A stretch of DNA of 64,000 nucleotides, from contig NZ_JAUMKC010000004.1 in the NCBI RefSeq assembly GCF_030519355.1, positions 186,001 through 250,000 of the forward strand, given 5' to 3'. The notes under the pieces were generated by a model. It was not told the origin of the DNA, did not search any database, and saw only the letters and a program-made list of their open reading frames with translations. Positions 28,080 to 32,474 of the stretch are shown piece by piece; position 1 is the stretch's first letter; the number at the start of each line of letters is the position of its first letter. This stretch comes from Mucilaginibacter sp. L3T2-6. Its GTDB lineage: Bacteria > Bacteroidota > Bacteroidia > Sphingobacteriales > Sphingobacteriaceae. The position numbers and the translations under genes are program-made.

Positions 28080-29294
28080 TTAAATGCTCACCACCTGGTT
28101 CATCACCTCTTTATCGAAATTTTCCATCACCAGTATAGCTGCGCCGATAAGCTCGGCATCAAAACCCAATTCAGATATCAGCAGCTCGGTGCCGCCGGAA
28201 AGCCGTGGAATACAATATTTATGCAGCGCCTGCTGTATGGGCGCCATTAGTATTTTGCCGACTTTTGCCCCACGACCGCTCAGCACTATGGCTTCCGGGT
28301 TCATGATGTGAATCAATATGGCAAGCGCTTTGCCGATTTTATAACCTGAGTCTGAAAACAATTCGATGGCGAACTGGTCGCCGTTATTGGCGGCAGTCAT
28401 AATCGCCTCGCTCATTTGCTTACTTTGGGCTTCGCCTGTAATTTTCAGGCTGGTAATACGCCCTTGTTTAATGCCTTCAATAGCCTTTTTTGCCACCACC
28501 AGCATCGAGGCTTCTGCCTCCAGGCACCCGCGTTTGCCGCACTCGCAAAGGGCTCCGTCCTCCAGTAAGGGGATATGGCTAAATTCACCCGCAAACCCGT
28601 TGCGTCCTCTGAACAGTTCGCCGTTAACTATCATGCCTAAACCGATGCCCCAGCTCAGGTTAATCACCATTACCTCATTCTGCAACTTCGCGATGCCAAA
28701 TTTTTGTTCGGCCAGCGCAATCAGGCTTGAATCATTGTCGATATAGGCGGGCAGCCCGGTTTCATCAGTAATGTATTGCGAGAGGCTGCGCTCTCCCGAT
28801 TTCAGGTAGGTGTAGTTAATGCCTTTTATCGGGTCGATAAAGCCCGGCATACCTATACCAATGCCTGTAATCTTTTCTTTCAGCACTCCGCAATTATCAA
28901 GATATTTATTGATGTGCTGTACCAATGTGTGCAGTGCATTATCATTACCGGCCAGCTTCAACTCAAACATCATCATATCGGCCACCGGCTGGTTACGCAG
29001 GTCCACCAACTGGATCCGGGTATTCATCTGGTCCATTGCGATAGCCAGGATGTACATGGCATCTGCATTGATGGCATACATCAGCGGGCGGCGTCCGCCG
29101 CTCGAAGGGGCATAGCCCTCCTCAACTACAAAGCCTTTTTCAATCAGCTCATTCAGCGCCTTAGCTATGGAAGGGATGCTTTTATCGAACAGCTCGCTCA
29201 ATTCCGCACATGACATCGCCCTGTCAAAATAAAGACACTTGGTTATCATGTGCTTAAGCTGCATGCCTTTCACGGTTTTCGTTTTAAGTTCCAT
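28080..29294 (-). CDS. ROK-family transcriptional regulator (NagC/XylR type)
   Basis: The 404-residue protein has an N-terminal winged helix-turn-helix (about 10-70, with SCAELSELFDKSIPSIAKALN) and a ROK sugar-kinase-like domain. It keeps the zinc motif CECGKRGCLE and the signature GIGIGMPGF. ROK regulators respond to sugars or sugar phosphates and repress catabolic genes. The family 3 glycosidase gene lies upstream on the same strand, so regulation of glucoside use is plausible. The gap between them is 544 bp and holds a tandem repeat. Confidence 0.88.
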   Translation of the reverse strand: MELKTKTVKGMQLKHMITKCLYFDRAMSCAELSELFDKSIPSIAKALNELIEKGFVVEEGYAPSSGGRRPLMYAINADAMYILAIAMDQMNTRIQLVDLRNQPVADMMMFELKLAGNDNALHTLVQHINKYLDNCGVLKEKITGIGIGMPGFIDPIKGINYTYLKSGERSLSQYITDETGLPAYIDNDSSLIALAEQKFGIAKLQNEVMVINLSWGIGLGMIVNGELFRGRNGFAGEFSHIPLLEDGALCECGKRGCLEAEASMLVVAKKAIEGIKQGRITSLKITGEAQSKQMSEAIMTAANNGDQFAIELFSDSGYKIGKALAILIHIMNPEAIVLSGRGAKVGKILMAPIQQALHKYCIPRLSGGTELLISELGFDAELIGAAILVMENFDKEVMNQVVSI

Positions 29295-29394: not shown

Positions 29395-29609
29395 CGGCAT
29401 TGGCGGAAAAAACCTTTCCTAAAGCATCGCTGCAGATGGGCAAAACGCTTTTAGCCCGTAGCAAAAAACACCCCGAAAACAGGCAAAATGCGTTTTGCCC
29501 GTAACTAAAATAGCCCCTGGAATGGGTATAACCGGTTTTGCCCATCTGCAAAAAAAGCTAAAAAACGGGCATAAGGCGTTTTGGTCGTTGCATATATTCG
29601 TCATAAATT
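29395..29609. repeat. Degenerate tandem repeat, four (perhaps five) units with exact 43-bp period
   Basis: Units begin at 29438, 29481, 29524 and 29567, with exactly 43 bp between starts; a weaker unit may start at 29395. Each contains a short palindromic core, such as GGCAAAATGCGTTTTGCC in the second unit, followed by an A-rich stretch. The array fills most of the 544-bp gap between the glycosidase gene and the ROK gene. Short reading frames through it have no family likeness, so it is probably non-coding. It may serve as operators for the ROK protein. Confidence 0.7.
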
Positions 29610-29777
29610 CCTCTGTATTAGTAAATTAGTGAATTTACCTTTATGAGGGCCTCAATAATGCAAATAAATCAGCCGGAGAAATATTAAGGATTTTCTTCCT
29701 GGAAACCGGAAGAATTCAAATATACAAAATTTGGGGAATAATACCCAATAGTAATCCCGATTTTCCATTCAAAAATT

Positions 29778-29806
29778 TGCAGGGACACGGGCCTTGCGTC
29801 CCTGCA
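29778..29806 (-). terminator. Palindrome after the glycosidase gene, terminator-like
   Basis: TGCAGGGAC (29778-29786) and GTCCCTGCA (29798-29806) form a perfect nine-pair stem with an 11-nt loop, about 30 bp beyond the minus-strand stop. A T-rich stretch (AAATTTTTG) follows on that strand. It could also be a REP element. Confidence 0.5.
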
Positions 29807-29838: not shown

Positions 29839-32241
29839 TTATTTAACTACCTCAAACTCCTTTTTAAGCTTAATATCTTCTGAGGATTGCCCGATCATCA
29901 CCATAAATTTACCGGGCTCAACGGTCCAGTTATTGTTTTTGTCGAGGATGGCCAGGTCGTCGGGGTGCAGGGTGAAGGTTACGGTTTTCTTTTCGCCGGG
30001 ATTTAGCGTGATGCGCTCAAAGCCGCGCAGGTCATATTCGTAAACAGTAACACTGCTAACTTCCTGTTTCAGATAAAGCTGTACTACATCGTCGCCTTTG
30101 CGTTTCCCGGTATTGCTTACGTCAACCGCGACTGTAATATCGCCCTGCTGGTTTTCTTTTTCGGGCGATACCTTTAGGTTATCATAAGCAAAAGTAGTGT
30201 AGCTTAAGCCGTAACCAAAAGGATATAAGGCGCCATTCACACTGGTTTTGCCCCAGCTGTTTTTACCGCCCTGGCCTGCTTGCGATGCCGGTTTGAAAGG
30301 AAAATTAAATTCCAGCTGCCCCGTAGTTTTCGGGAAGGTGATAGATAGCTTGCCACCGGGGTTGTTATCGCCAAACAAGGTCTCGGCAATTACCCGCCCG
30401 CTCTCCGGGCCCGGAAACCATGCCTCCAAAATAGCCGGCACATATTTGTTTTCCCAGTTTACCGTAAGCGGCTGTCCGTTTATCATTACCATTACCACGG
30501 GTTTGCCGGTAGCCTGCAAAGCCTGTATCAGCTTCAATTGCCTGCCAGGCAGATTGAGCCCGGTGCGCGAAAGGCTCTCGCCCACGCGTTCTGCATCTTC
30601 GCCCACGGCGGCTATAATTACATCCGCATTTTTTGCCGCTGCCACAGCCGAATCAATGGATGCCTGTTCCTTTGCACTAAGCGGCGTTTCAATTATTTCG
30701 CTCTCCGGCCAGGTGGGGTCAATAATGTCGCAGCCTTTGGCGTACGTTACATTAGCGCCGCTGCCAACGTAGTTTTTGATGCCATCAAGAACGGTGGTAA
30801 CGGGATGGTGCGATGGTCCGTACCTGCTGATGGCATAGCTTTTATCCGCGGCCAGCGGTCCGGTCACCAATATGTTTTTAATTTTAGATTTATCCAGCGG
30901 CAACAGGTTATTCTCATTTTTCAGCAGCACCATCGATTCACGGTTCATCTGCAAGCCCATTTGCTGTGATGCTTCACTGTGTACAATTTTATCCGCGGCT
31001 TTAGGGTCTTTTACGTATGGATTATCAAATAACCCCAGCTTAAATTTTACCCTCAATACATCGGCAACACGTGAATCAAGTGTTTTCATCGATATCTTAC
31101 CCTCGCTCAGCAGATGGCGTAAAGGCATTATATAAGTTTGCGGCATGCTGAAATTGGTGCGCACGTTTAACCCGGCCTCGAAAGCCTGCCGCACGGCTTC
31201 TTCGGGCGTAGCTGCCACATGATGTTTGCTGTACAGGTATTCAACCGCCTCGCTGTCGCTCACTACATAGCCATTAAAGCCAAATTTTTGCCGCAGCAGC
31301 TCTGTTAAAAAATAATAGCTGCCGGTAATTGGCTCGCCATTCCAGTCGTTGTAGCTGCTCATTATGCCAAGCGGATGTGCTTCCTGTATTACCCTGCGGA
31401 AAGGATAAAGATAGAGCTGGTACATTTCCCTTGGCGCTACATGCGGATCGGTACGTGCTGCGCCATCGCGGCCGCCTTTGGGCACGCTGTAAACTGCAAA
31501 GTGCTTTACGGTTGATGCTGCGCCCTCTTCCTGTATGCCCAGCGTCATTTGCTTGCCCAGCTCGGCAATCAGGAATGGGTCTTCGCCATAAGTTTCCACT
31601 ACGCGGCCCCAGCGCTGGTCGCGCGATACGTCCAGGATTGGTGCATAAACATTGGTATAGCCTAAGGCCCTTGCTTCCATGCCTACAGTTTGCCCTGCAC
31701 GCCGAACCAGTTGCTTATCCCATGTACTGCCGATACCGATTGGGGCGGGCAGCGAGGTAGCCCGGTCATGGTTTAGTCCATGTATGCCTTCATTGGTAAA
31801 ATCAACCGGGATGCCCATGCGGGTTTCTTCCACAAACCATTTCTGTATAGTATTTATAGCCGATGCATGTTTGCTGTAAGGGTAGGAATATTGCGATTGA
31901 GCGGCATCTGTTTTTGAGGCAAGGCTATTGAGTTCCTCATCAATATTAGCGATCCCATCTTTCCAAACCTCATTCTTCCACGATGGAGCGGGCATTTCCT
32001 CCTTCAAAACCCGTTTATAGCCGTATAGGGTTGCCAGCTGGCAGGTTTTCTCGTCCGCTGTCATCTGGCTCAACAAATCGTCTATACGCTTTTCGATGGT
32101 TTGTGAAGGATCCTCAAAAACATCCATCTTTCCATTCTTATTGAAATCGATCCAGCCTTTATGGTAAATGTTCTTTTCCTGGGCATTGGAATGCATAGTG
32201 GTTAAGAGCAGCAGTGGCAGCAGCAGTGGCAGTTTTTTCAT
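29839..32241 (-). CDS. Family 3 glycoside hydrolase (beta-glucosidase type), secreted
   Basis: I start at the ATG at 32241, which gives a signal peptide (MKKLPLLLPLLLLTT..., ending near NAQ) and 800 residues. The frame continues upstream without family likeness. The protein has the GH3 N-terminal barrel with the nucleophile region YVVSDSEAVEYLY, the GH3 C-terminal domain, and a terminal fibronectin III-like domain. It is probably periplasmic and cuts beta-linked glucosides or xylosides. A -7 box (TATATTTG, minus strand) lies at 32261-32268. Confidence 0.92.
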   Translation of the reverse strand: MKKLPLLLPLLLLTTMHSNAQEKNIYHKGWIDFNKNGKMDVFEDPSQTIEKRIDDLLSQMTADEKTCQLATLYGYKRVLKEEMPAPSWKNEVWKDGIANIDEELNSLASKTDAAQSQYSYPYSKHASAINTIQKWFVEETRMGIPVDFTNEGIHGLNHDRATSLPAPIGIGSTWDKQLVRRAGQTVGMEARALGYTNVYAPILDVSRDQRWGRVVETYGEDPFLIAELGKQMTLGIQEEGAASTVKHFAVYSVPKGGRDGAARTDPHVAPREMYQLYLYPFRRVIQEAHPLGIMSSYNDWNGEPITGSYYFLTELLRQKFGFNGYVVSDSEAVEYLYSKHHVAATPEEAVRQAFEAGLNVRTNFSMPQTYIMPLRHLLSEGKISMKTLDSRVADVLRVKFKLGLFDNPYVKDPKAADKIVHSEASQQMGLQMNRESMVLLKNENNLLPLDKSKIKNILVTGPLAADKSYAISRYGPSHHPVTTVLDGIKNYVGSGANVTYAKGCDIIDPTWPESEIIETPLSAKEQASIDSAVAAAKNADVIIAAVGEDAERVGESLSRTGLNLPGRQLKLIQALQATGKPVVMVMINGQPLTVNWENKYVPAILEAWFPGPESGRVIAETLFGDNNPGGKLSITFPKTTGQLEFNFPFKPASQAGQGGKNSWGKTSVNGALYPFGYGLSYTTFAYDNLKVSPEKENQQGDITVAVDVSNTGKRKGDDVVQLYLKQEVSSVTVYEYDLRGFERITLNPGEKKTVTFTLHPDDLAILDKNNNWTVEPGKFMVMIGQSSEDIKLKKEFEVVK

Positions 32242-32260
32242 TTTCGGTAATTGGTTGAGC

Positions 32261-32268
32261 CAAATATA
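32261..32268 (-). promoter_or_regulatory. -7 promoter box of the family 3 glycosidase gene
   Basis: On the minus strand the sequence reads TATATTTG, a match to TAnnTTTG, 19 nt before the ATG at 32241. The implied leader is about 15 nt. It supports the chosen start. Confidence 0.5.
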
Positions 32269-32474
32269 TAGGTTGCAGTGGAGAACAGTAGCCTGCAATG
32301 GCCTAAAAAGGCGGCAAAACCAGGTTAAATCTACGATAACGATGTAGTAGCCATAGTAAAGTTGCACAGCTGCGGTTTATTGCTTGTTTTAATATTAGCT
32401 ATGCCATCCGGGTATTTGGTACAACGCATAAGAATTTACCCGTTTTATTGGCACTACTATTGTTTTTCAAAAGC

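Follow-up and report, generated by a model that had tools for sequence, protein, structure and literature searches.

What is the short tandem array that precedes a ROK family gene in Mucilaginibacter sp. L3T2-6, and which protein, if any, would recognize it? The window analysed here, that is, the whole stretch under study, comprises 64,000 nucleotides of this genome. Within it the preliminary description had noted four units at an exact period of 43 bp, and this is borne out: the units start at 29438, 29481, 29524 and 29567 with GGGC, AGGC, GGGT and GGGC, respectively, and the array extends from approximately 29431 to 29600, with positions 29395-29430 lying outside of it. Its self-match at an offset of 43 is 0.64 over 86 bases, compared with at most 0.51, at any offset from 34 to 55, in the other 11 of the 12 five-kb blocks of the window. 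Tandem Repeats Finder and a repeat search of the window both failed to report a tandem family here, since the similarity between the units is only about 64%. Along the minus strand, the order is the glycoside hydrolase family 3 (GH3) gene, a terminator-like loop (29806-29778), a candidate promoter box (29724-29717), the leader, the array and the start of the ROK gene at 29294 (Table 1).

Table 1. Coordinates of the array, its units and the neighbouring features in the window.
Feature	Position	Strand	Basis or remark
Four-unit array, 43-bp period	29431..29600	(-), functional reading direction towards the ROK gene	Sequence, profile and self-match; 13 copies in the genome
Unit 1, palindromic core GGGCAAAACGCTTTTAGCCC	29438..29457	none	Sequence
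Unit 2, palindromic core AGGCAAAATGCGTTTTGCCC	29481..29500	none	Sequence
Unit 3, palindromic core GGGTATAACCGGTTTTGCCC	29524..29543	none	Sequence
Unit 4, core GGGCATAAGGCGTTTTGGTC with diverged right arm	29567..29586	none	Sequence
Candidate Bacteroidota -7 box TATATTTG, for transcription through the array to the ROK gene	29717..29724	(-)	Box enriched at such a position in arrays
Predicted 5' leader, promoter to array	29601..29716	(-)	Box data
ROK family gene 3' of the array, presumed regulated gene	28080..29294	(-)	137 bp from array end to start codon
Terminator-like stem-loop after the GH3 gene, splitting it from the transcription unit of the array	29778..29806	(-)	
Glycoside hydrolase family 3 gene upstream of the array, start codon uncertain	29839..32367	(-)	

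The genome search proposed in the preliminary description revealed a dispersed element. In the genome of the window, termed G000 (other G numbers denote related genomes), blastn gave 12 further matches to the array, two of them parts of one array, with a best E value of 5e-30. A sequence-only profile built from 12 copies, R1, then recovered 13 full-length copies in G000 at 118-137 bits and no degraded copies above background, the next-best matches being opposite-strand readings of the same arrays. The alignment of these copies is nearly gap-free, with conserved arms and A-tracts, and with a variable centre of 3-4 bp and a variable 8-bp stretch between units. CRISPR arrays consist of palindromic repeats with variable short stretches between them, and the element resembles them in both respects; a CRISPR array is nonetheless disfavoured, given that the variable stretch is of about 8 bp rather than a repeat-length spacer, and that about four units occur at each of many loci per genome.

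The genes behind the G000 arrays encode ROK, Dabb, CGNR, amidohydrolase, PASTA, peroxiredoxin, acyltransferase, beta-lactamase-like, aromatic amino acid lyase, kynureninase, NHL-repeat and carboxyl transferase proteins, and the neighbour of one further array is oppositely oriented and has no Pfam match. No common pathway is evident among them; two, Dabb and peroxiredoxin, carry a stress-related annotation. The array does lie just upstream of the ROK gene, as first described, with its end 137 bp from the start codon, and it had been proposed from this adjacency that the array is the operator of the ROK regulator. ROK adjoins only one of the 13 G000 arrays, however, the remaining 12 being beside other genes, and clustering of the genes next to arrays in relatives does not return ROK as a recurrent neighbour. 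Binding by the ROK protein is thus not supported, and we regard this proposal as scarcely credible.

As a separate observation, the palindrome GCTGACA-N6-TGTCAGC occurs within about 400 bp 5', in the sense direction, of seven G000 arrays (L053, L054, L055, L056, L057, L058 and L059). It has 29 sites in this genome at up to two mismatches, compared with 10 for a reversed-pattern control, and it may be the operator of another regulator.

We then considered 149 Mucilaginibacter genomes. Profile R1 marked 11 of them at E <= 1e-6, and two models built from other families, R2 and R3, added seven at the same cut-off, giving 18 array genomes, with the proviso that the three models contain members from many of the matched genomes, so that those matches are partly by construction. 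The sequence of the unit is strongly group-specific: family F1 is that of G000; F1b is found in G162, G146 and G055; F2 in G138, G093, G098 and G134; and F3 in G050, G130, G127, G092, G019 and G119. The period is another matter. Offsets of 42 or 43 account for 99.4% of the self-matching positions in 86 arrays from 15 species, a convenience sample of the arrays fetched rather than a full census, and wherever an array adjoins a CGNR gene, an unbiased scan of periods from 34 to 59 gave 42 or 43. Five weak R1 matches (L181, L187, L191, L198 and L200), in which no repeats of 42-43 bp were seen by eye, were left out. Since 42-43 bp corresponds to four helical turns of DNA, these data sustain the earlier idea of a regulatory DNA array with helical phasing. 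Two doubts that had been raised about it, that the period might vanish in relatives or that the array might be a simple recent duplication, do not apply, because relatives keep the period at 42-43 bp and the array is not a recent duplication.

The palindromic core fared less uniformly. It is real in G000, where on average 7.7 of the 10 arm positions are complementary, but it is not general across families: in F3, the most distant one, arm complementarity is 6.5, not above the 6.8 of a flanking control. The period of 42-43 bp is universal among the arrays, and the palindrome is not. By eye, the arms in G000 also pair between units, the left arm of unit 1 with the right arm of unit 3, and the left arm of unit 2 with the right arm of unit 4; this pairing is absent in the other families. 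A best-partner test gave mixed results: 37 of 72 arrays had their closest array within their own genome, where it must be considered that close species pairs share families; with the same qualification, the five best partners of the G000 array at the CGNR locus are all in G000. In G140, which has no CGNR gene, L199 consists of two units with a 43-bp period and a different unit sequence. In G093, L149 and L150 contain stretches that match themselves perfectly at offset 55 and may be a tandem or CRISPR-like array.

When the genes within about 3 kb of 68 arrays were clustered, a single family, the CGNR zinc-finger family, was found at six loci in five genomes, at a distance of 14-61 bp from the array; no other cluster exceeded three loci. 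In G000 this partner is encoded away from the window array, at about G000:C23:55277-56008 on the + strand, as a protein of 243 aa. The domain PF11706 is present in 27 of the 149 genomes. First, in a tree of 26 full-length CGNR proteins, the 16 that are array-linked fall on one side of a branch with support of 100/98, and a second CGNR gene of G093 (296 bits) also has an array. All 17 array-type genes thus adjoin an array of 42/43 bp on the same strand. Second, such an array was found beside none of the 10 other full-length CGNR genes of the genus (best self-match 0.59, at period 45), nor at a further 19 CGNR loci, of which 10 belong to other genera (best 0.56). Third, of the 18 array genomes 15 have a gene of the array-type clade, and the 131 others have none (Fisher 6e-18, a value in which independence is overstated, the species being related). 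In the three array genomes without an intact gene, none was seen in G098, which is 70% complete, and in G005, and only a decayed remnant in G124.

A profile of the array-type proteins, A2, was run against 399 genomes of the family. Array-type genes score at least 296 bits and others at most 210, with the broken gene of G055 at 195, although A2 contains most of the array-type rows and the gap is partly by construction; none of these 399 genomes outside Mucilaginibacter yielded an array-type gene. All 12 members of A2 match both the ABATE domain (PF07336) and the CGNR zinc finger (PF11706), and these are the only domains above Pfam cut-offs, with no nuclease or transposase domain among them. Four cysteines, C177, C179, C195 and C200, are invariant in the 12 proteins and would be the ligands of a treble-clef zinc site. 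In a sequence search the protein matches Jann_2411 (PDB 3h0n, E 6e-6), while a fold search with the AlphaFold model (mean pLDDT 71) returned no match with E below 0.65. Jann_2411, the one family member with a solved structure, is a dimer whose treble-clef zinc finger was proposed to bind DNA, and ABATE/CGNR proteins have been proposed as DNA-binding transcription regulators, a proposal for which the available part of the source gives no target site (PMC2954205). The partner resembles these proteins in its two domains; unlike other ABATE/CGNR proteins, its clade alone is tied to phased repeat arrays.

Array similarity and CGNR protein similarity are correlated (Mantel rho 0.70, with none of 5000 permutations as high), an association that could come from shared descent alone. 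Loss of the array and its protein is possibly in progress in two genomes: in G055 the CGNR gene is frameshifted (L099 and L224) and R1 finds a single array, and in G124 the remnant is decayed (L308) and the arrays look degenerate.

Nine genomes have the array upstream of the CGNR gene, and the six F3 genomes have it downstream; in all of them array and gene share a strand. Of the 86 arrays, 63 have the motif TAnnTTTG, which we take to be the consensus of the Bacteroidota promoter box, in sense orientation in the 250 nt 5' of them, and 13 have it there in antisense orientation (57 and 13 of 80, respectively, without six rows that were oriented by hand); 3' of the array the counts are 24 sense and 6 antisense. 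A second motif, TTCTTTRA, occurs 5' of 35 of the 86 arrays in sense and of one in antisense, and 3' in sense of none. The next gene 3' is on the strand of the array in 68 of 85 cases (p 1e-8; 63 of 79 without the hand-oriented rows), and the 5' gene in 47 of 83. By family, the 3' agreement is 12/13 in F1, 9/9 in F1b, 24/29 in F2, 22/33 in F3 and 1/1 in G140. Terminator-like elements occur in the 150 nt 3' of only 2 of the 86 arrays. With a promoter box 5' and a gene on the same strand 3', the arrays therefore appear, judging from sequence, to lie within long 5' leaders between promoter and start codon.

Transcription through the arrays raises the question of whether they act as RNA, namely, as leader motifs that are bound by the CGNR protein or that fold, as in TRAP or CsrA targets. 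The same-strand promoter box and the TTCTTTRA motif on the sense strand would agree with this. However, in the arms of the sense RNA, A-C mismatches outnumber G-U pairs, 199 to 116 (binomial p 3e-6), and antisense folds are more stable than sense folds in all four main families, both being the opposite of what would be expected under selection on the sense RNA; moreover, a spacing of 42/43 is needless for RNA. Rfam, at the gathering score, gave no match in 8 loci, and in the window only weak chance matches. The A-C excess, the stabler antisense folds and the fixed spacing together favour recognition as DNA, with which an unstructured RNA motif is compatible, and we hold a role as RNA to be improbable. 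Tandem intrinsic terminators or insulators could likewise be imagined from the F1 units, in which, by eye, a GC-rich inverted repeat precedes a short run of T when read on the minus strand. Yet a terminator-like element is found in just 9 of the 86 arrays, and in other families the arms are not self-complementary, by eye and in arm-pairing counts, which leaves this explanation with very little chance.

How the copies spread is relevant to a further possibility, that the arrays are selfish dispersed repeats like REP/RAYT, moved by the CGNR protein or another enzyme, with regulation being secondary. A genome may have only a few copies or as many as about 25; three sites in G130 and one in G092 share a unit of about 310 bp, comprising promoter, leader and array, that is 81-87% alike between them; and the folC site has an array in G092 and G130 but not in G050 and G019. 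Some arrays of G092 and G134 are near a RAYT (Y1_Tnp) gene, and several recent F3 copies (L110 and L287-L289, in G092 and G130) have a REP-like sequence, CCCGACATACTTGCGCCAGC, next to them. One neighbourhood, the hemF-MFS-peroxiredoxin region, has arrays in different intergenic gaps, before peroxiredoxin in G000 (L055), and before a gene that is presumably hemF in G162 and G146 (L091 and L095). As described in the available part of PMC6006769, REP/BIME-RAYT systems, including subclass 2.6 of the Bacteroidota, share with the arrays dispersed intergenic palindromic repeats and a cognate protein gene flanked by a copy; they differ in that the arrays come without a HuH transposase, keep a fixed period of 42-43 bp with about four units, and are polarised in 5' leaders. 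Against selfish spread, moreover, stand the ABATE and CGNR domains as the only ones over Pfam cut-offs, with nothing of a nuclease or transposase; the G000 copies, all full length and none decayed; the strong polarity with which arrays are placed towards the gene downstream; the lack of any such array at two RAYT-like loci of G000 (L141 and L142); and the fact that neither an insertion boundary nor a target duplication was established. Selfish repeats are therefore an unlikely explanation.

We consider it probable, instead, that the array is a helically phased cluster of DNA operators for one clade of ABATE/CGNR proteins, which would control its own gene together with a dispersed regulon. Each unit of 42-43 bp would be one roughly two-fold symmetric site, and we thus propose that four dimers sit on one face of the helix. 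The CGNR protein would bind the array, presumably as a dimer here as well, and, once bound, would stop or adjust transcription across the leader, with repression the expected outcome. The cluster in the long 5' leader of the CGNR gene would provide autoregulation, although in one sub-clade it directly follows the gene, and about a dozen unlinked genes, in the window the ROK gene, would also carry the cluster in their 5' leaders. Protein and sites would diverge together under a fixed period, which would account for the unit sequences being particular to each species group. Helically phased operators with several sites are exemplified by lac and AraC looping and by iteron arrays; the clusters are like them in having repeated near-symmetric sites whole helical turns apart, and unlike them in that the four-site module as a whole is dispersed and is transcribed as part of a leader.

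Some observations do not sit easily with this operator cluster. Simple promoter autorepression does not suffice throughout, given that six of 15 genomes have the array on the downstream side of the CGNR gene. Arrays exist without an intact CGNR gene in G098, G124 and G005; the G000 targets have no obvious shared pathway; and in F3 the palindrome is not above control and downstream co-orientation is weaker (22/33). More tentatively, and with rather less than an even chance of being right, promoter, leader of about 100-200 nt with the conserved motif TTCTTTRA, and four phased zinc-finger sites may form a hitherto undescribed regulatory cassette that is copied whole to new genes. By such copying, we propose, the one small CGNR protein would gain and lose members of its regulon, with protein and sites being rewritten jointly in each lineage.

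The annotation of ABATE/CGNR proteins does not go beyond that of putative regulators, and we found no described target site for any of them, nor, in the literature searched, with subscription papers and preprints outside its scope, a description of these repeats or of their CGNR partner. The co-travel of the arrays with one kind of zinc-finger protein suggests an undescribed system of gene control. The 17 protein-array pairs, with diverged specificity and a clear prediction of binding, open the DNA code of the CGNR finger to direct testing, and the genus would offer a natural case of a regulator and its dispersed multi-site operator changing together within a fixed geometry of four turns of the helix.
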